Assembly (NCBI GenBank): GCA_003697085.1
Contig: RFFU01000101.1
Location: forward strand, 1-33,408
Reading direction: 5' to 3'
Source: Candidatus Hydrogenedentota bacterium
GTDB taxonomy: Bacteria; UBA8481; J006
Length of the DNA stretch: 33,408 nucleotides
The notes beneath the pieces were generated by a model, which did not search any database, was not told the DNA's origin, and saw only the letters and a list, made by a program, of their open reading frames with translations. A program made the position numbers and the translations under genes. This document shows, in pieces, positions 13,415-33,323 of this stretch. Each line of letters opens with the position of its first letter. The first letter of the stretch is position 1.

Positions 13415-13500
13415 GCAGGCATCTTGCCTGCACCGAAAAGATGGAGTGCAGACTCTCCAGTCTGCGGAGTCCTCCTGGAAGCGCGGGCATCCCTGCCCGC
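13415..13500. repeat. Cluster of three different intergenic hairpins
   Basis: Three perfect 7-bp stems sit within 86 bp: GCAGGCA-TCT-TGCCTGC (13415-13431), GCAGACT-CTCC-AGTCTGC (13448-13465) and GCGGGCA-TCCC-TGCCCGC (13483-13500). They lie in the 310-bp gap between the divergently oriented permease gene and tRNA-Val. The same stem types recur at the other repeat clusters. None is followed by a T-run. Confidence 0.8.
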
Positions 13501-13575: not shown

Positions 13576-13596
13576 AGATTATGTTTGAACGCAGTT

Positions 13597-13670
13597 GGGC
13601 GCGTAACTCAGATGGCTAGAGTGTCACCTTCACACGGTGGAAGTCACAGGTTCGAGTCCTGTCGCGCCCA
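13597..13670 (+). tRNA. tRNA-Val (anticodon CAC)
   Basis: A complete 74-nt cloverleaf is visible: acceptor GGGCGCG pairing with CGCGCCC, D-arm stem ACTC/GAGT, anticodon stem TCACC/GGTGG around loop TTCACAC (anticodon CAC, reading GUG), and T-arm ACAGG-TTCGAGT-CCTGT, with A as discriminator. The CCA end is not encoded. The final 18 nt recur at 13840-13857 as part of a tandem duplication. Confidence 0.95.
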
Positions 13671-13967
13671 GAAATGAGAAACCAAAAAGGAAACGTTTTC
13701 CGATCGAACCAAAGGAAAAGCCCCGTGGACTCGAAGCCCGATGAGCGTCCTGCCTGACGGCAGGCGAGGCGCAGGGATGCGCCGAGAGCGAATCGGGCGG
13801 GTCGGAGAGACGGACGCAGGAGGCGGACGTCGCGGAGACCGAGTCCTGTCGCGCCCAGACATGGGAAACCAAAAAGGAAACGTTTTCCGATCGAACCAAA
13901 GGAAAAGCCCCGTGGACTTGAAGCCCGATGAGCGTCCTGCCCGACGGCGTCCCGAGGCGCAAGGATG
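13653..13967. repeat. Tandem duplication of the tRNA-Val 3' end plus flank
   Basis: The segment 13653-13779 is repeated at 13840-13967 (offset 187 bp) with only a handful of differences and one small indel near the end. Each copy begins with the last 18 nt of the tRNA (CGAGTCCTGTCGCGCCCA). About 110 nt of non-coding sequence follows, including GGAAACGTTTTCC and, in copy 1, a CCTGCC/GGCAGG hairpin. The second copy has no tRNA 5' part. The frames translated from this stretch are not genes. The rest of 13671-14075 holds only the promoter for the next operon. Confidence 0.85.
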
Positions 13968-14040
13968 TTCGCGGCTCTGGGGACGGTCCAATTGAAAATT
14001 TTTCTACACCTTGTCTTTTCCATCGCTGCGTCATCCGCCC

Positions 14041-14069
14041 TTGTAAGGCGTGCCGGGGGAGGATAGGAT
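14041..14069 (+). promoter_or_regulatory. Putative promoter of the DUF4139-moaX operon
   Basis: TTGTAA (14041-14046), 17-bp spacer, TAGGAT (14064-14069). The start of transcription would fall at or next to the ATG at 14076, suggesting a leaderless message. A GGGGGAGG stretch lies 13-20 nt upstream of the ATG and could instead act as a distant ribosome binding site. Confidence 0.45.
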
Positions 14070-14075
14070 TGCGGC

Positions 14076-15242
14076 ATGGTGAAAGCGGTTTGGGAAGGCG
14101 GGTTTCGGAAGGCGGCGGCGGTCTCGTCCCTCGTTGCAATTCTTCTGGTCGGGATGAAAACATCGGCGCGGGTGAAACTGGCGACGTTGCCGGATCGCGC
14201 CTTTCTTTCCCTCTCGCTTGAGAATCCCTCGCGCAGTTTCGTTCAGGAGGAGCGGATTCTGACGCTCCAGGCGGGACTCAACGAGGTCGATTTTTCGTGG
14301 CAAGGCGTTCGAATCGATGCTTCCGCAGTACTGATTGAGATGCTGGATCACCCGGACTCCGTGAAGTTGGTGGCGGTTCGTTATCCTCCGGGCGAAGATG
14401 CGCTCGTTTGGGAGATCGTCTCGGCCGAGCCGGTGACGGAGCGGGTCCGCGTCAGTTATTTTCTGAATGGAATCCGTGAGAACTATTCCTACGCGGCCGT
14501 CGCCGACACGGAAGAGACACGGCTCGATTGGCGGCAATACATCCGCATCGAGAACGCCAGCGGGGAGCGTTTGGAGAACCTGATCGTGCATACAGGGATC
14601 GCGGACCCGTATCAGACGGAGCTGGAAGCCGGCGAGATGCGGAAGACGTTGGTGAACAAGGAGCGGATTCCCTTGAGGAAGCGGTTCGTGTGGGACGCTG
14701 CCAAGAAACCGCATGACCCCTCGAAGGAGAAGAAGAACGTCGGGGTCCCGATCTTCTATGTGATCGAGAACTCCTCGGCGCAAGCGTTGGGGCGTTATCC
14801 GTTGCGTGCGGGGAAGGTTCGCGTTTATCAAGAGGATGCTCACGGATCGAATGCGTTTCTTGGTGAGGATTGGGGACGCTACACGCCCGTCAACGGCGAG
14901 ATGGAGATTCAAGTGGGGGAGTCACGGGACATCGTTGTGACGCGGAAGGAGATATCGAGGGTCAGGAATTTCGAACGCCGGGATCGGGATAACCGCGTCG
15001 TCCTGTACAGCGAGCGTTCGGTTTATGAGGTTACGATCGAGAATTTCCGGAAGGAGGAGTGCGAGGTTCGCGTCCTCGACCATTTCTCAGAGTCGTGGTC
15101 GGTGATCGAATCGACGCATCCGTGGGAAAAGGTGGACAGCCGGACGTTGCGATTCGATGTTCCGGTGCCGGCCGGAGACTCGGTCCCCCTGCGGTTTACG
15201 ATCGAGCGACGAAATTTGGTTCCGGGCGGAGCGCTGGGGTGA
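14076..15242 (+). CDS. Secreted DUF4139-like protein (first of a pair)
   Basis: A 388-residue protein with an N-terminal signal peptide (basic start, then AAAVSSLVAILLVG, cleavage around residue 31). Beta-rich sequence follows: a first domain with ERILTLQAGLNEVDFSW and a C-terminal DUF4139-like domain (about 225-385; VIENSSAQALGRYPLRAGKVRVYQ-type start, then FLGEDWGRYTP and VGESRDIVV). DUF4139 proteins are sandwich-fold proteins of unknown function; in related MuiA-type proteins the domain follows a DUF4140 region. The next gene is a diverged paralogue whose GTG start overlaps this stop codon (GTGA). It is probably periplasmic or surface-exposed. The signal peptide fixes the ATG at 14076 as the start. 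Confidence 0.8.
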   Translation: MVKAVWEGGFRKAAAVSSLVAILLVGMKTSARVKLATLPDRAFLSLSLENPSRSFVQEERILTLQAGLNEVDFSWQGVRIDASAVLIEMLDHPDSVKLVAVRYPPGEDALVWEIVSAEPVTERVRVSYFLNGIRENYSYAAVADTEETRLDWRQYIRIENASGERLENLIVHTGIADPYQTELEAGEMRKTLVNKERIPLRKRFVWDAAKKPHDPSKEKKNVGVPIFYVIENSSAQALGRYPLRAGKVRVYQEDAHGSNAFLGEDWGRYTPVNGEMEIQVGESRDIVVTRKEISRVRNFERRDRDNRVVLYSERSVYEVTIENFRKEECEVRVLDHFSESWSVIESTHPWEKVDSRTLRFDVPVPAGDSVPLRFTIERRNLVPGGALG

Positions 15243-19439: not shown

Positions 19440-19602
19440 GCGTAGACACTCCTGTCTGCGGATTGCCGTTCCGCCCGTGGTGTCATTCCGAGCGGGGCGG
19501 CGCTCGGAATGGCAACGCGGACGCCAATCCGCCCCGCAGGTTGGAGAACCTGCGCGCCATTCCCGCCAGCAAGAGGCTGGCGTTCCCAGGTTGGAGAACC
19601 TG
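19440..19602. repeat. Cluster of five intergenic hairpins
   Basis: In order: GCGTAGACA/TGTCTGCG-type stem with loop CTCC (19440-19460); CATTCCGAGCG/CGCTCGGAATG, an 11-bp perfect stem (19484-19494 with 19501-19511); GCAGGTT-GGAG-AACCTGC (19536-19553); CGCCAGC-AAGAG-GCTGGCG (19564-19582); CAGGTT-GGAG-AACCTG (19587-19602). They are non-coding and sit between the purine-rich block on the left and the pyrimidine-rich block on the right. Confidence 0.8.
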
Positions 19603-19840: not shown

Positions 19841-21877
19841 ATGACGGATCTATTTGCACCGATCGACTCGCTTCCAGGGGTCGGCCGGCGTCGTGTAAAG
19901 GGATTCGCGCGGTTGGGGATCGAGCGCGTCGTGGACCTCCTTTTTCACCTTCCGCGCCGATACGAAGATCGCAGGGTCGTTGTGCCGATTGCGCGGCTGG
20001 AGCCGGGCATCCCCGCGCTCATCCGCGGCGAACTTCTCCAGATCGATTCGAAGCGGATACGAAGCCGCCTGACGCGTCACACGGCGGTTCTTCAGGACGA
20101 CACCGGCCGTATTCCGATCTGTTTCTTCAATCAGGATTACATTCTGGACCGTTCGAGGCCGGGGGCGCGCTGGGTCGTTTTCGGAGTCTGTGAATTCTTC
20201 CGCGGCCGGAAGCAATTTGTGATGAAAGACGTTGACCTGACGGGGACGGGGAGAAAATTGGGGCAGGGGAGGGTCCTTCCCTTCTATCCGGCGACCAGCG
20301 CGACGACGCAGGTGTTTCTTCGCGGTCTGATTCGGAAGATTGTCCGGGAGGTGGCGCGGCGGGATCCGGGAACCGCAACATTTGAAGGAGTACCGGCGTT
20401 TTCGGAAGCGGTTCGGATGGTGCACTTGCCGATCGACGTGGAGGAGCCGGAACGGGGCCGGCGTCGTTTGGCGTTGGAGGAACTGGTCGCGGTGCGACTG
20501 TGTGTCGAGGAGGCGCGGGCACGGAAGCCTCCTTTGGAACGCCCGCCGGACGATCGCGTCCCGGTCTCATTCACGCTTCCCTTTCAGTTGACGGAGGAGC
20601 AAGAGCGGGTGTGGGGAGAGATCGATCGGGATTTACACGAGGCGCGCGCAATGCGGAGGTTGGTGGAGGGGGATGTCGGGTCGGGGAAGACGGTTTTGGG
20701 AATCCTGGCGGCGGTACGGGCGGCGGGCCGGGGACTCAAGACGGTCTTGATGGCGCCGACGGAGATTCTGGCCGTGCAACATTACGAGACGTGGGGGGAA
20801 CGTCTTGCGCGGGCGGGAATTCGTGCGTTTCTTCTGACCGGGGCCACATCGAAACGGGAGCGGGAGGAGATCGAGGAGGCGGCGGGGAGCGAGGAGCCGG
20901 TGATCTTTTTCGGAACGCATGCGTTGTTCTACTCGACGGCGGCGATCGAACGTCTGGGTCTTGTGATCATCGACGAGCAGCAGCGATTCGGAGTCGCGCA
21001 GAGGCGGGCGATTATGGAGAAGGCGACGGAACGCGGGACGAGACCGGATCTTTTGATCTTGACCGCCACGCCGATTCCGCGGACCCTGGCCCTGACGCTC
21101 TACGGAGACCTTGAAATTTCCACTTTAAAAGGGCTTCTGCCCGGGCGGAGGCCCGTGCGGACGATTCATCTTCCGGAGAAGGAGCGGAAGCGGTTGATGC
21201 CGTTTCTGAGATCGGCTCTGGAGGAGGGCGACGGCGTCTACATTATCTATCCCGTGATTCACGAGGAGGCGGGTGCGGAACTGATGGTGAAGGATGCACA
21301 AAGCCAGTTCCGCAAGATTCAAAAGGCCTTCGGGAAATACGGCTGCGCCTTATTGACGGGCGAGACGCCGTCCGAGGAGAAACGCGCCGTGATGATGGAG
21401 TTTCGTTCCGGAAAGGTTCAGATCCTCGTGGCCACCTCGGTCGTCGAGGTCGGGCTGGACGTGCCGCGGGCGACCCTGATGATCATCGAGCACGCGGAAC
21501 GTTTCGGACTTTCGCAGATTCACCAGTTGCGCGGTCGCGTGGGGCGCGGGAAGAAGCCGGGCACCTGCATCCTCACGACCGCCGAGGAACTCTCCGAGTA
21601 TGCGCAACGGCGGATGGAGGTGTTGGTGACTTGCACGGACGGTTTCCGTATCGCGGAAGAGGACCTGGCTTTGCGCGGCCCCGGCGAGATTTTAGGGGAA
21701 CGCCAGCATGGGGGAACCGAACTGAAGGCGGTGGAATTTCGCCGTGACGGGGATCTGGTCGAGCAGGCGATCGGCTGGGCGCGGGAGCATTACCGAAAGG
21801 ACCCGCGACTGGTTACGGTTCCCTTTTTGAAGGGGCTGGTCCAAGCGGCTCCGAAGACGGGTGCCGATGTCTATTGA
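19841..21877 (+). CDS. recG: ATP-dependent DNA helicase RecG
   Basis: A 678-residue RecG, the SF2 translocase that remodels stalled replication forks and branch-migrates recombination intermediates. It has an N-terminal helix-hairpin/wedge part (SLPGVGRRRVKGFARLGI, then the OB-fold wedge to about 150). The helicase motifs are VEGDVGSGKT (Lys283), MAPTEILAVQH, motif II DEQQRFGVAQRR (378-389), LTATPIPRTLA, VATSVVEVGLDVP and QLRGRVGRG. Its C-terminal TRG-like region includes FRIAEEDLALRGPGE. Most RecG proteins that I recall have DEQH as motif II; here it is DEQQ. The length is typical for RecG. Its 3' end overlaps the first Maf gene by 11 bp. Confidence 0.95.
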   Translation: MTDLFAPIDSLPGVGRRRVKGFARLGIERVVDLLFHLPRRYEDRRVVVPIARLEPGIPALIRGELLQIDSKRIRSRLTRHTAVLQDDTGRIPICFFNQDYILDRSRPGARWVVFGVCEFFRGRKQFVMKDVDLTGTGRKLGQGRVLPFYPATSATTQVFLRGLIRKIVREVARRDPGTATFEGVPAFSEAVRMVHLPIDVEEPERGRRRLALEELVAVRLCVEEARARKPPLERPPDDRVPVSFTLPFQLTEEQERVWGEIDRDLHEARAMRRLVEGDVGSGKTVLGILAAVRAAGRGLKTVLMAPTEILAVQHYETWGERLARAGIRAFLLTGATSKREREEIEEAAGSEEPVIFFGTHALFYSTAAIERLGLVIIDEQQRFGVAQRRAIMEKATERGTRPDLLILTATPIPRTLALTLYGDLEISTLKGLLPGRRPVRTIHLPEKERKRLMPFLRSALEEGDGVYIIYPVIHEEAGAELMVKDAQSQFRKIQKAFGKYGCALLTGETPSEEKRAVMMEFRSGKVQILVATSVVEVGLDVPRATLMIIEHAERFGLSQIHQLRGRVGRGKKPGTCILTTAEELSEYAQRRMEVLVTCTDGFRIAEEDLALRGPGEILGERQHGGTELKAVEFRRDGDLVEQAIGWAREHYRKDPRLVTVPFLKGLVQAAPKTGADVY

Positions 21878-23498
21878 GAGCGGAGCCGCGGACGGGGAGG
21901 AAGTCGTGCGCAAGACGGAACCCGAATCGTTGGAGATCGAGAGGAGCCGAACGGGGAAACCGGTGCCTCGCCGAGGCGGGCGGTATCGGCATTCGCGATA
22001 CGATCCGGAAAAGGAAGCGGAACGTCTTGTGAAACGAGCCGAAGGTCGTGATCCCCGCCTCGTCGTGCTCCTTGATGTCGGCTGGGGATACGCCGTGCTG
22101 GCGGCCCGCCGCCTCTTTCCGAAGGCAAAGGTCATCGGTTTCGAAAGCGACTTGGAGTTGGCGGAACTGGCTCGCCGCAGAGGGGCCTGGAAAGAAGACG
22201 ACCGTACGGTATTTCTCGCCCGGGGGGAAGATCGGGATGAGTTCGAACTTCTTTCCCGATTCATCGATGAGGTGGGCGCGGCACGACCGGTCTTCCTTTC
22301 CGCCGGATCCGCGGATTCCGATGCCGGAGACAAATGGAAACACCGGATGATCGAACTTGTGGAGAAGATCGTGGCGATGCAGAGGGAAAGCCTTTCGACT
22401 TCGGCACGGTTCGGAAGTCTCTGGTGGGAGAACTCGGTGAGAAACCTCGAGGCTTGGACGCGCGTCCCGGATGTCTCCACGTGGTTCAATAAGGCTCAAG
22501 GGGAAATGGTCATCATCTTCGCGGCCGGCCCTTCGCTCGACGATTCCCTCGAACTCTTTCAAGGCGGAGACGGCGGAGTACGACTCGTGGTCGATACGGC
22601 CGCGAAACGGGTCTTGGAGTCCGGTATCCGCGTGGATGCGGTTCTGGCCGCTGATGCGCAGGATTGGACCCTCGAACACTTCAGCAAATTGGAGGTATCT
22701 CGCCTTCTGGCGACTCCGATCGTTCCTCCGGCGTTGTGGGATCGTGGCCGCGAGCGAATTCTGATGACGCTTGCGGGTCCGCATTTCGAATGGATGGCGT
22801 CGGCCGCGGGTATGAGACGGGTGCCGCTCAAGGCCGGAGGGTCCGTGACGACCTTTGCGTTCGACCTGGCCCGACGGATGAGCCCTCGCGCGATTCTCTT
22901 GGTCGGAAACGATTTCGCGTTTCGCGCGGGGCGACGTTACGCTTCCGGGACCACCTACGAGGGGCGTTTCGGAATGCACTCTTTGGTTCCAAACCGTTTT
23001 CTGACATTTGAGAATTATCTCCTCAGAAACGCTGTTCGGGAGGAGGACGGTCAGGTTACGGATGAAGTGCTGAGACAGTATGCCCGGTGGATGGAATGGG
23101 AGATTGCGGCGACGAAGATTCCGGTCTATCGCGCGGTTGATTTCGGACTGTTGAAAAATTCTCCCGTGATTCCGCCTGACGTTCTACGGCAATTCCTCGA
23201 ACGTCCCGCTTGGAATCCGCCGAGGCCTCTCGGTGGAACGTCGGAAACGGTGCCGATATCGGAAAAGCGACTCCGGCGGGCGCTGGGTTCCGAACGGTTG
23301 AGGTTGGCGCGGATTTTGACGAGTCCGCGGAAGAGATTGGCGGAATTGGGGCCGTTCTTCGAACCGATCGTTCGGCCGTTCGCCGTCGCCTCTCATCTCG
23401 ACGGTCTCGACGATGAGGCGATCCGCGAACTGACGCGGCGTCTCGTTCGCGCCGGCGATCTCCTCGATGAAGTACTTTCGGAAGATGCTCGACGTTAA
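21867..23498 (+). CDS. Maf/DUF115 family protein, paralogue 1
   Basis: A 543-residue protein of the MAF_flag10/DUF115 family (motility-associated factor, 6-hydroxymethylpterin pyrophosphokinase MptE-like fold; flagellin glycosyltransferases in Campylobacter, Helicobacter and Aeromonas). An N-terminal Rossmann-like part (LVVLLDVGWGYAVLAARRL, about 65-83) precedes the core: IIFAAGPSLDD (216-226), VVDTAAKRVLESGIRVDAVLAAD (241-263), GGSVTTFAFDLA (324-335) and LLVGNDFAF (344-352). It is the most diverged of the three neighbours: GAGPSL reads AAGPSL, and the VD/ID after the second strand reads AAD. The ATG at 21867 (or GTG at 21861) overlaps recG. It probably modifies a surface protein with a nonulosonic acid, which is an inference from the family. 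Confidence 0.8.
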   Translation: MSIESGAADGEEVVRKTEPESLEIERSRTGKPVPRRGGRYRHSRYDPEKEAERLVKRAEGRDPRLVVLLDVGWGYAVLAARRLFPKAKVIGFESDLELAELARRRGAWKEDDRTVFLARGEDRDEFELLSRFIDEVGAARPVFLSAGSADSDAGDKWKHRMIELVEKIVAMQRESLSTSARFGSLWWENSVRNLEAWTRVPDVSTWFNKAQGEMVIIFAAGPSLDDSLELFQGGDGGVRLVVDTAAKRVLESGIRVDAVLAADAQDWTLEHFSKLEVSRLLATPIVPPALWDRGRERILMTLAGPHFEWMASAAGMRRVPLKAGGSVTTFAFDLARRMSPRAILLVGNDFAFRAGRRYASGTTYEGRFGMHSLVPNRFLTFENYLLRNAVREEDGQVTDEVLRQYARWMEWEIAATKIPVYRAVDFGLLKNSPVIPPDVLRQFLERPAWNPPRPLGGTSETVPISEKRLRRALGSERLRLARILTSPRKRLAELGPFFEPIVRPFAVASHLDGLDDEAIRELTRRLVRAGDLLDEVLSEDARR

Positions 23499-25224
23499 CG
23501 CCCCTTGGTTTCGCGATAGGCCGGCATTGCTCGATCGACTTTCGAAAGCGAAGGAAAATTATGACGTGATCCCCTCCCGCAAGGGGATGCCGGTGGTGCG
23601 GAACCGTGCGGATGGAAGGATGTTTTTCTCGAGGTACGATCCGGAGCGGGAGGCACGGCGGTGGTGGGCGGCCCAGGAAATTCAACCCGGCGACCTTCCG
23701 GTCATCCTGGGCTTTCCGTACCCGGTGTTTTGCGCCGTCGAGGAGCGTCCGATCGTCTGCGCCACAACGGATGCGGCGTTTGTCAAGGCCGTCCTGGAAA
23801 ACGTTCCTCTCGGTAACGCGCTCCAAGGAATCACCCTTCTCGTCACGGAAGACCCGATCCTTCTCCGTTCCGTGATTCGTAACAACTACGATCCGTTTCG
23901 CCATCGGCGGGTGCGGGTCTTGAATTCGGTTCCCGAAGGCGATCCGAAATGGACGAAGGTGATGCTTGAGGCGGCGGTCGATTTTCAGCGCGAGAATGCA
24001 ATGAATCTGCTCTCTTATGCCTATCAGTTGCCGACATGGCTTCACACAATCCGCCGAAATCTCGAAGCCTGGGCGGAGTCGCCGGATCCCTCGGTTCTGG
24101 AGAACCTTTTTTCGGGAGAGACGGCCATCATCATCGGCGCGGGGCCGTCGCTGGAGAAGAATATCGGAGAGCTCCATAAGGTTCGTGGCCGCGCGGTAAT
24201 GATCGCCGTCGACACCGTTTTGCGCCGTCTTGACGCCGAAGGAATCCGGCCGGACATTGCGGTGGCGGTGGATGCCAACGAGGCGAATGCTTTGGACATC
24301 GTTGATGTCGGTGGAGATGTATTGGAGGCCGTCCTGGTGGCGGATCCGATGGCCTCGCCCGAGATCGTGCGGGCTTTCGAGAAGAGACGGCTCTTCTTCC
24401 GCTCGATCAACTACACCTTCGATGCCGAAGGCCGCCCCGCGCCGATCCTGATGCCTCTGGATCAATTGCTTATCTTCATTGCGGGACGCGAGAGGATTCC
24501 GTACTGGCAGAGTGGGGGGTCGGTTTCGACGAATGCCTTCTCGCTGGCGACGTATCTGGGATGCCGAACGGTCGTGCTGGTGGGCCACGATTTCGCTTTC
24601 ACGGGAGGGCGGACTCACTCGGCGGGGGTCGGTTACGAGGAGATCAGCGAGAATCTCGACCGGTTCAGCTCGTTCGAGCGGGAGCGTTGGGCCCGGTTGG
24701 CGCGGGGGGAGATTGCGGTACCGGCGTGGGACGGCGGCGAGGTCTTCACGACGGAGGTGATGCGCGAATTTGTACGATGGTACGAATCGACGATCGCGGA
24801 AGGATTCGCCCGGGAAATCCGGATGATCGACGCGACGGAAGGGGGGATGAGAAAAGAGGGAATGGAACGGCGGAGACTTTCGGAAGTGGTTGCTTCGTTG
24901 CGCGGTGACATCGCGGTCAAGACGCGGATCGATGAGGCGTTGGCGAAGACGGAGCCGACGGCGGCGCCGGGATGGATGGAGCGGAGCGGGGAACTGGTTC
25001 GCGGTGCGCAGGTTTTTCTCGCGGAACTTGAGGCTGGGGACCTTGCGTCCGGGGCGGAGCCCGTGTTTCCGGGGGGGATCCTGGGTGATCTTTTGCGGTG
25101 GCTGATATTGCCGGCGTATCTTGGAACCGCGGATCTGAAAGAAGAGGAGCGAAGGGGAGTGATCCGGCGATCCCTGCCCGCGGCGGCGAGGTTTGTGGTG
25201 GAAGAGTGGGGGCGCGGCGGGTGA
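23467..25224 (+). CDS. Maf/DUF115 family protein, paralogue 2
   Basis: A 585-residue protein with the full Maf core: AIIIGAGPSLEKN (220-232), AVDTVLRRLDAEGIRPDIAVAVDA (247-270), WQSGGSVSTNAFSLATYLG (347-365) and VVLVGHDFAFTGGRTHSAG (369-387). The start at 23467 gives an N-terminus (KYFRKMLDV) that lines up with the start of paralogue 3 (EIFERNLQV), so I prefer it to the ATG at 23485; it overlaps the upstream gene by 32 bp. The predicted role is transfer of a CMP-activated nonulosonic acid onto Ser/Thr of a surface or flagellar protein. No flagellar gene is visible in the window. Its stop overlaps the GTG of paralogue 3 (GTGA). Confidence 0.85.
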   Translation: MKYFRKMLDVNAPWFRDRPALLDRLSKAKENYDVIPSRKGMPVVRNRADGRMFFSRYDPEREARRWWAAQEIQPGDLPVILGFPYPVFCAVEERPIVCATTDAAFVKAVLENVPLGNALQGITLLVTEDPILLRSVIRNNYDPFRHRRVRVLNSVPEGDPKWTKVMLEAAVDFQRENAMNLLSYAYQLPTWLHTIRRNLEAWAESPDPSVLENLFSGETAIIIGAGPSLEKNIGELHKVRGRAVMIAVDTVLRRLDAEGIRPDIAVAVDANEANALDIVDVGGDVLEAVLVADPMASPEIVRAFEKRRLFFRSINYTFDAEGRPAPILMPLDQLLIFIAGRERIPYWQSGGSVSTNAFSLATYLGCRTVVLVGHDFAFTGGRTHSAGVGYEEISENLDRFSSFERERWARLARGEIAVPAWDGGEVFTTEVMREFVRWYESTIAEGFAREIRMIDATEGGMRKEGMERRRLSEVVASLRGDIAVKTRIDEALAKTEPTAAPGWMERSGELVRGAQVFLAELEAGDLASGAEPVFPGGILGDLLRWLILPAYLGTADLKEEERRGVIRRSLPAAARFVVEEWGRGG

Positions 25225-26882
25225 TCAGCAACGAAATTTTCGAGAGAAATTTACAGGTGTTAGGAGAGCGATTTCCGGACACGGCGCGACTGTTGAAGGG
25301 AAAGACGATCGAGGTGAAGGGCATTCGAATCGTTTCCTCTCGGTCGGGACGGCCGTATCTCCGTTTGACGGCGCACGGAGTCGATCAGCCGTTGGAGGAT
25401 GAAGTCGATCCGGCGCGGCAGGCGAAGGAGGAGATAGCGCGGTGCGATCCGGAAGCACGGCTTGCTATCATCAAGGGGTCCGGATCCGGATATCTTTTGC
25501 GCGCCGCTTTGGCGGGCCGACGATTTGCGAGGGTGGTGTTGGTGGAGCCCGAGCCGGCGTTTTTCGGTTTGATGTTGGCAATGGGGGATCTGCGCCGGGC
25601 TCTATCCGATCCGCGCCTTTCCCTGTATGTGGGACCGGGAGCGATCGAAGAATCGATCCGCGGGTTGCGTAACGAGTACAACTTCAGTTGTGAGCCCGAA
25701 CGGTTTTTGGTCGTGCTTCCTCCTTATGTAGTTCTGCGCCATCCGGCGATCGGAATTCGGCCGGGGAAGGAAGAAGCATGGGAGGTGCGTTTCCGAGAAC
25801 TCGCGGTGACGAGCGACCGAAATCGCGCGACGTTGGATCGTTTCGTCGATGTGTGGCGCGAGCATATCTGGCGGAATCTTCCGGCGATTCTTCGAAGCGC
25901 TCCTCTGACCGCGCTTGAGGGAGTCGCGAAGAGGGCCCGGGTTCCCGTGATCCTCGTTGGTGCCGGCCCTTCGCTCGACCGAAACGTTTCGGTTTTGAAG
26001 GAATATGCGGATCGCGTTGCGATCATTGCAGTCGATACCGCCTTGCGCTCTCTCGTTCACGCCGGGATTGAGCCGCATTTCGTCATCGCCGTCGATGCGA
26101 CGGAGGAGAACGTTTATGATTTTGATGGGCTTCCCACCCGTCGGCTCCGAACGGCTCTCGTGATGGTGCCGGTCGTGCATCCGCGGATTCCGGAATTCTT
26201 CGAGAGGCGTTTCGTCGCCAGTTACGGTCATCCGGTGCAGAACTGGATCGAGGAATCATTGGGCGAGCGATTCGGGTCGCTTCTGGTTTCGGGAAGCGTA
26301 TCGACGATCGGGTACGATTTGGCTCGCTATCTCGGAGGCTCACCGATCATATTGATGGGGATGGATCTGGCGTACGGGATGGGCACGCATGCGTCCGGAG
26401 CGAGGGAACACGTCGGCCCCATGAACCGATTTGAGAGTCGAGAGCGGAACCTTTTTGAGGAGATGAAGCGGGCCAAGATCACTCGACCGGGGTGGGGCGG
26501 CGGAACCGTCGCGACGACACTGCAGATGGTTCGATGGGCGGAATGGTTCGAGCGGGAAGTGAAGAAGACTTCGTGCCGAACGATCAACGCGACGGAGGGC
26601 GGGATGCGTATCGCCGGCGCGGTCGAGATTTCGTTGGAGCGCGCATTGAAGAGTTATGCGGGGCGGAACCGGTTTTCGATGCCGAGGGCGGAGGGATTCG
26701 GAAAAGCGGCCCTCGATCGGTTCTCGAGGGCGGTGGAACGGCTGCGCGCCGGCGGTATCGCGTCCGAGACGGTCTGGCGGAGGCTGCTTTTGTGGGAGAG
26801 TGCCGTCCGATCGGAAGAAGAGCAAGGACGAATTCGGAAGGAAATCCGTCGTCTTCTCGACGAGTATCTGGCGGAGAGGTGA
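25221..26882 (+). CDS. Maf/DUF115 family protein, paralogue 3
   Basis: A 553-residue protein. The frame is open from 25098, but the GTG at 25221 overlaps the upstream stop and is the likely start. The N-terminal domain (about 1-180) has LAIIKGSGSGYLLRAAL and VVLVEPEPAFF, a Rossmann-like pair typical of longer Maf proteins. The core shows VILVGAGPSLDRN (243-255), AVDTALRSLVHAGIEPHFVIAVDA (270-293), VSGSVSTIGYDLARYLGG (356-373) and ILMGMDLAYGMGTHASG (377-393). It looks like the most canonical of the three. The expected function is glycosylation of a surface or flagellar protein; the target is not evident. A 241-bp gap without an obvious gene follows. Confidence 0.87.
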   Translation: MISNEIFERNLQVLGERFPDTARLLKGKTIEVKGIRIVSSRSGRPYLRLTAHGVDQPLEDEVDPARQAKEEIARCDPEARLAIIKGSGSGYLLRAALAGRRFARVVLVEPEPAFFGLMLAMGDLRRALSDPRLSLYVGPGAIEESIRGLRNEYNFSCEPERFLVVLPPYVVLRHPAIGIRPGKEEAWEVRFRELAVTSDRNRATLDRFVDVWREHIWRNLPAILRSAPLTALEGVAKRARVPVILVGAGPSLDRNVSVLKEYADRVAIIAVDTALRSLVHAGIEPHFVIAVDATEENVYDFDGLPTRRLRTALVMVPVVHPRIPEFFERRFVASYGHPVQNWIEESLGERFGSLLVSGSVSTIGYDLARYLGGSPIILMGMDLAYGMGTHASGAREHVGPMNRFESRERNLFEEMKRAKITRPGWGGGTVATTLQMVRWAEWFEREVKKTSCRTINATEGGMRIAGAVEISLERALKSYAGRNRFSMPRAEGFGKAALDRFSRAVERLRAGGIASETVWRRLLLWESAVRSEEEQGRIRKEIRRLLDEYLAER

Positions 26883-33176: not shown

Positions 33177-33323
33177 GCGCCGGCATCCTGCCTGCAAGAA
33201 TGGGGCGCAGGTTCTCCAACCTGCGGGACGGACCGGCGTCCTCGTTGTCATTCCGAGCCCCTCGCATTCGCTCGGGACATGCTCCGCGAGGAATCCCCTT
33301 CAGGTGGTATCCCGCGTAGTGCC
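33177..33323. repeat. Intergenic repeat mosaic at the right end
   Basis: It includes a degenerate GCAGGCA-type element (around 33182-33196), a perfect CGCAGGTT-CTCC-AACCTGCG hairpin (33206-33213 with 33218-33225) and a GTCATTCCGAGC/GAGGAATCCCC cassette (about 33247-33300), ending in GGTGGTATCCCGCG. These are the same building blocks as at 75-345 and 5670-5910. There is no gene in the 253 bp after the YkgJ-type gene. Confidence 0.8.

Follow-up and report, generated by a model that had tools for sequence, protein, structure and literature searches.

The 3′ ends of tRNA genes are classic landing sites of mobile DNA, and integrative elements that use them as attachment (att) sites leave behind a directly repeated tRNA 3′ end whose boundary lies in the T-loop. 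In E. coli, the tyrT and tyrV loci carry tandem units that start with the tRNA-Tyr 3′ end (RtT RNA, RF00391; rttR, tpr). Egan and Landy reportedly described the tyrT repeat in 1978 as 178 bp long and present in 3.14 copies. The rttR unit is annotated as a small RNA, and PMC11623569 lists literature on an RNA product of tyrT. Two other kinds of element are comparable in some respects. REP elements, which are associated with RAYT (Y1) transposases, are short, non-coding, structured, multi-copy and non-autonomous, and a short palindromic motif in one archaeon recurs just 3′ of many tRNA genes.

We analyzed a locus behind a tRNA-Val gene of a Candidatus Hydrogenedentota bacterium and found that it belongs to a family of structured repeats occurring behind many tRNA and tmRNA genes. 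The window, meaning the whole stretch of DNA analyzed, is 33,408 nucleotides long (contig RFFU01000101.1). The repeat family is apparently undescribed. We found no description of the wider family in the open literature that we searched. As far as their main text goes, the Geobacter and Pelobacter genome papers list multicopy sequences and do not describe the present family.

The tRNA-Val locus

The window has a single tRNA gene, tRNA-Val(CAC), at 13596–13671 on the plus strand (ARAGORN; Rfam RF00005, 64.2 bits). A repeat search of the window found that 13653–13761 is repeated at 13840–13948 with a spacing of 187 and 96% identity, which across 109 nt is far above chance expectation. An additional 15-nt match (13765–13779 with 13953–13967) is shifted in register by one base. 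A preliminary description of this DNA had reported a duplication with this approximate spacing that begins in the tRNA 3′ end. Our analysis confirms it and refines its start to C56 in the T-loop, such that the repeat includes the final 19 nt of the gene. The second copy, from 13840 onward, indeed has no tRNA 5′ part, as had been stated.

The true unit is the tRNA 3′ end, a 55-nt spacer and a folded element, all on the plus strand. The first direct copy of the tRNA 3′ end, delimited by the repeat search, runs from C56 to the end of the gene (13653–13671, CGAGTCCTGTCGCGCCCAG). The spacer between tRNA and element (13672–13726) includes GGAAACGTTTTCC and has no terminator T-run. The element itself (13727–13846) starts with an inverted T-arm, GGACTCGAA (13727–13735), which is the reverse complement of the host T-arm TTCGAGTCC and forms the 5′ strand of the closing stem P1. 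In the fold, P2 (13736–13742 with 13792–13798) encloses the hairpins P3 (13748–13754/13759–13765) and P4 (13768–13772/13779–13783), and a further branch, P5, which has the hairpin CGCAGGAGGCG, occupies 13800–13840. The second direct copy of the tRNA 3′ end lies at 13840–13858; its CGAGTCC supplies the 3′ strand of P1, and what remains is the acceptor 3′ strand. Compensatory changes mark this stretch as a folded element, and it scores 120 bits with our first covariance model (R1). With the later model (R2) it scores 112 bits; it belonged to the training set of that model, but members in other genomes extend the family.

The second unit (13840–13968) keeps the tail copy and the spacer, which the repeat search places at 13859–13913. 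Its element (13914–13968) is truncated and unable to fold. The arm reads GGACTTGAA where the first unit has GGACTCGAA, and the sequence is lost past the P4 loop, so we regard this as a decaying partial unit.

There is no plausible gene within 13672–13839; the listed open reading frames (ORFs) are short, and those on the minus strand are spurious antisense-tRNA frames. Overlapping minus-strand ORFs of 115–177 aa run antisense through tRNA and element at 13616–14163 (GRDRTRTCDFHRVKV, GATGLEPVTS). They look like the familiar false “protein” read from an antisense tRNA, and such calls may have concealed the element from annotation. In an Rfam scan of the window, the tRNA alone reaches threshold, and we judged weak matches to CRISPR-DR64, sX14 and snoRNAs to be chance. 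Elsewhere in the window, intergenic palindromes of 18 nt occur at 13483–13500, 19536–19553 and 33207–33224 (GCGGGCATCCCTGCCCGC; GCAGGTTGGAGAACCTGC in both orientations) and probably represent another, unrelated short repeat that is dispersed. At 21861–26882, three ORFs in a row (545, 585 and 594 aa) are apparent paralogues of each other.

Relatives behind other tRNA and tmRNA genes

A search of the window’s own genome (3.2 Mb, 145 contigs) with 13653–13980 gave diverged matches of 67–76% behind tRNA-Gln(CTG) and tRNA-Asn(GTT), plus one at a place without a tRNA. Reading the 3′ flanks of 44 tRNA/tmRNA genes added members behind Arg-ACG, Arg-TCG, Ser-GGA, Ser-GCT and Ser-TGA, truncated members behind Lys-CTT and Asp-GTC, and an inverted arm behind tmRNA. 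Relatives stand 3′ of about a dozen other tRNA/tmRNA genes in this genome, and across homologous cores, both here and in other phyla, the breakpoint is always the same T-loop position. Upstream of the orphan copy on contig C6 is an apparent remnant of a tRNA-Asn end, and we read the copy on C64 as running into the contig edge inside a tRNA-Ser tail. On these readings, nearly all copies are tied to tRNA/tmRNA genes. The preliminary description had offered a tRNA-linked satellite repeat as one option. The relatives found behind many other tRNA genes bear this option out, and the flank is neither confined to this locus nor invariant.

For other genomes, we scanned named genomes with a sequence pattern and then used the covariance models R1 and, later, the wider R2. 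The pattern scan gave 66 stretches, mostly chance matches, which were kept if they had a tRNA upstream or matched a model. True members occur in Geothermobacter hydrogeniphilus, where R2 gives nine matches (one of them probably false), and in another Desulfuromonadales metagenome-assembled genome (MAG), where it gives two. They are also present in two Marinamargulisbacteria, with five and two R2 matches, in an Omnitrophota MAG, with four, and on a contig assigned to Nitrospirae J017. The likely false positive (L090:95-211) is present in A3, in R2 and among the nine Geothermobacter matches, eight of which are probably real; it was omitted from the tree described below.

Within Desulfuromonadales, the order of Geothermobacter, elements are carried by 18 of 38 genomes, with one to nine matches each. 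One other genome of the window’s phylum gave no match with R1 or R2. A sample of 39 genomes, mostly of other families, yielded a single weak match supported by its context, in genome G039 (Leu, Gly and Lys genes). The G039 sequences (L060/L168), which lie behind those Leu, Gly and Lys genes, form a diverged subfamily with a shorter core; this hints that further core types of the same plan exist. Under strict filters, R1 found no element in 385 other genomes, in part owing to low sensitivity, and a strict sequence pattern applied to 386 genomes matched the window’s own genome only, plus one chance match in G161. Phage and plasmid records contained no match to one Desulfuromonadales copy (L174). 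Given these survey counts, the family is patchy, being common in one order and scattered elsewhere.

Throughout the family, the unit consists of the host gene’s 3′ end, a spacer, the inverted T-arm, a G+C-rich core of ~105 nt, and CGARTCC followed by the host acceptor 3′ strand. The family repeat length is ~120 nt, and the core has two nested three-way junctions. We assembled 86 distinct elements from 25 genomes, of which 77 have a tRNA or tmRNA gene directly upstream on the same strand and 75 are comparable. In 73 of these 75, which represent ten T-arm types, the inverted arm (9 nt) reproduces the reverse complement of the local T-arm without a mismatch, while a match to genes with a different T-arm occurs in 3 of 3030 comparisons. 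The 12 nt past the end of the model are identical to the acceptor 3′ strand of the local gene in 55 of 75 cases (mean identity 0.88), versus none of 5028 comparisons with foreign genes (mean identity 0.45). Those 12 positions are absent from the model. The window copy is exact in both its arm and its 12-nt tail with respect to tRNA-Val. Unusual hosts conform as well: tmRNA, tRNA-SeC, genes with the T-loop TTCAAAT, Leu with TTCGAGTCT, Gly and Pro with TTCAAATCC, and Lys with TTCGAGACC. The tail copies are exact, often through CCA, and stand behind intact genes.

Five cores of the window’s genome share one fold, in which P1 closes the structure, P2 surrounds P3 and P4, and P5 is the second branch. 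P1 is formed by the inverted arm paired with CGARTCC of the tail copy. Before any model was built, these five copies alone already showed compensatory change in 17 of 40 pairs. Across 85 distinct rows, standard pairs account for 83% of pair cells, and 513 cells are double-changed, compared with 149.7 ± 9.7 in shuffles and 78–103 with slid partners. The 85-row alignment was fitted to the covariance model, which favors structure; nevertheless, the margin over controls is large. Pairing in P2 is poorer beyond the window’s lineage (61% over all). On this comparative evidence the fold is real, and the earlier guess of a structure in the flank is upheld by strong covariation. At well-paired positions, G-U pairs outnumber A-C pairs by 59 to 19, as expected if the tRNA-sense strand is the one that folds, either as RNA or as single-stranded DNA. 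A strand-specific mutation bias would be an alternative cause of the G-U excess. We also considered that P1, prolonged through the acceptor stem, might mimic a tRNA minihelix, but this fits a few copies (e.g., G416 Leu-CAG) and fails for Val and Gln.

Spacer lengths are bimodal, with 41 cases of 17–34 nt, 31 cases of 46–63 nt and none between. A terminator-like hairpin with a T-run lies inside 19 of the 31 long spacers and in none of the short ones. In 21 of the 31 long-spacer cases a terminator also occurs 3′ of the element. At G419 Glu and G412 Ser-CGA, both terminators are retained although the sequences differ. From these counts, some elements lie past the tRNA’s own terminator, yet something is terminated after them.

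Distribution of the elements among hosts and its proposed explanation

In a tree of the cores, Omnitrophota and Desulfuromonadales form clades, and grouping follows lineage rather than tRNA. The cores of the window’s genome split into a Val/Gln/Asn/Arg set and a Ser/Asp set. Among the 72 tips the host gene changes at least 29 times, on a tree most of whose forks are poorly supported. In G419, the core behind Pro-TGG shares 94% identity with the one behind Glu-TTC, while the two tails, TCTCGCTCCGACCA and CCCTGGGGACGCCA, are unrelated. Cores are also 90% identical between Geothermobacter Leu-GAG and G395 Ser-GGA, and 89% between Ser-GCT and Asp-GTC of the window’s genome.

Occupancy varies at one orthologous site. 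The tRNA-Gln/prs locus has a complete element in G419, a truncated one in G390 and none in G410, G414, G425 and G427. We rejected G414 as a close relative of G419, since their intergenic flanks do not match; the empty sites are therefore judged from the conserved tRNA-Gln/prs neighborhood. Tandem units number two at G419 Glu and three at G425 Ser-GGA, and the distal unit is often partial. At tRNA-Asn, the J017 contig (L120) carries an array of at least two units, and contig C37 of the window’s genome (G000:C37) carries one; the two share their downstream flank. L120 may, however, be misbinned and stem from the window’s lineage, and tandem repeats collapse in assembly, which makes this weak evidence of a change in copy number.

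The best explanation, in which we have moderate confidence, is that the feature in the window is a single copy, followed by the decayed beginning of another unit, of a non-coding structured satellite that colonizes the 3′ ends of tRNA and tmRNA genes. The comparisons establish target-derived arms, a fold of the sense strand, lineage-wise spread over hosts, growth and decay of tandem arrays, and variable occupancy. Elements would pass from one tRNA gene to another as small, non-autonomous satellites, and arrival would in effect duplicate the target’s 3′ end, leaving the host gene intact. Arrays would then lengthen or shorten through exchange between direct repeats. The intermediate would be RNA or single-stranded DNA. 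The inverted arm might be copied from the target on arrival or might be adjusted later by selection for P1, whose two arms track the host gene and so keep it closed. Strong conservation of the fold and retention of second terminators weaken the satellite explanation, because they also fit a selected RNA function; the negative phage and plasmid search with L174 and the element-bearing genomes that have no Y1 transposase genes count against it as well.

A stronger proposal, which we put forward tentatively, is that these are a class of mobile non-coding elements whose ends are rewritten from each target, so that an element moving among tRNA and tmRNA genes acquires inverted and direct copies of the new host’s 3′ end. 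Ends rewritten in this way would imply structure-guided copying, perhaps via an RNA or single-strand intermediate, unlike known transposition.

The main rival is a functional non-coding RNA of tRNA/tmRNA loci that is selected and mostly inherited vertically, with gene conversion between direct repeats keeping the tail identical. Since P1 must pair, both arms would then co-evolve with the host gene. The very strong covariation, the excess of G-U over A-C, and the presence of a terminator 3′ of the element in 21 of the 31 cases with a long spacer, retained although the sequence has diverged, all favor such an RNA, as does the small-RNA annotation of E. coli rttR, which has the same plan. However, a vertically inherited function sits poorly with the patchy occurrence (18 of 38 genomes in the order and, by pattern, none of 385 other-family genomes save one chance match), the empty orthologous sites at tRNA-Gln/prs, the clustering of cores by lineage rather than host gene, and the terminator between gene and element in 19 of the 31 long-spacer cases. 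We consider this rival rather unlikely, although it and the satellite explanation could hold together.

The preliminary description had also raised the scar of an integrated element. If the repeats were the footprint, or a miniature descendant, of an integrative element that has a tyrosine recombinase and uses the tRNA 3′ end as its att site, one would expect direct repeats of that end from the T-loop on, as well as tandem arrays. However, the unit has no ORF, integrase or other recombinase, the inverted arm is left unexplained and arrays terminate in partial units. Moreover, a tail carried along as an att site would match the donor tRNA, whereas the observed tails match the local gene even at 94% core identity, and G419 Pro-TGG and Glu-TTC show that the same core is not specific for one tRNA 3′ end. 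We regard a footprint as very improbable. The satellite and structure parts of the preliminary description thus stand and the integration scar is not supported; the folded core and inverted T-arm, mostly located between the two copies, had been missed.

Equally hard to sustain is the idea that the repeats are decoy att sites, i.e., spare tRNA 3′ ends selected to divert integrating phages or islands from the gene. Exact copies of the 3′ end behind intact genes, often through CCA, are what decoys would look like, but the conserved core, the inverted arm and the presence behind tmRNA and tRNA-SeC alike go unexplained. Simple local tandem duplication at one tRNA, likely the route by which units multiply within an array, fits the window in isolation (1.6 units, 187-nt spacing). 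As a full explanation it is refuted, because homologous structured cores with the same T-loop breakpoint lie behind about a dozen tRNA/tmRNA genes here and recur in other phyla, and it is the least credible of the readings.

Comparison with known systems

If the satellite explanation is true, a family of tiny structured elements that spans phyla and wears each host gene’s sequence would point to a mechanism for moving or copying short DNA that has not been described. The arms have to match the host gene, which makes the family a natural experiment in how an element tracks its target, and it is present in a cultured genus, Geothermobacter.

The new family shares the direct repeat of the tRNA 3′ end and the T-loop boundary with integrative elements that use tRNA genes as att sites. 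It differs from them in having no recombinase or cargo, in its inverted arm and in ends that follow the local host gene. The archaeal motif resembles it in position, but is a short palindrome without described copies of tRNA sequence.

REP elements are similar to the new family in their size, structure and non-autonomous character, but they are not bound to tRNA tails and lack host-gene copies. Y1 transposase genes occur in 40 of 44 genomes and average 6.3 in genomes of the order with elements versus 3.5 in those without (p 0.04). Three element-bearing genomes (G403, G410 and G387) have none, so the elements can occur without Y1 transposases.

The E. coli tyrT repeats are tandem units starting with a tRNA 3′ end, as in the new family. 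In the MG1655 sequence that we inspected, an inverted GGGGAAGGAT pairs with a direct ATCCTTCCCC / AATCCTTCCCCCACCACCA around a multi-branched core, which is the plan of the new elements, and a further unit lies between the two tRNA genes of tyrT. RF00391 has no match in the window at E-values up to 10 and none in seven other element loci at up to 0.5, whereas E. coli tyrT gives four matches; conversely, R2 has no significant match to tyrT (best E-value 0.096). Judged by these searches, the tyrT repeats have the same plan but are not the same sequence family. The inverted part spans the acceptor and T-stem in tyrT and the T-loop in the new family, which, unlike tyrT, occurs in several phyla and follows tRNA genes of many kinds as well as tmRNA. 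If the satellite explanation is true, the tyrT/RtT repeat, whose purpose is unclear, would become one case of a set that can be studied by comparison, and this little-noted E. coli oddity may belong to a far broader phenomenon.
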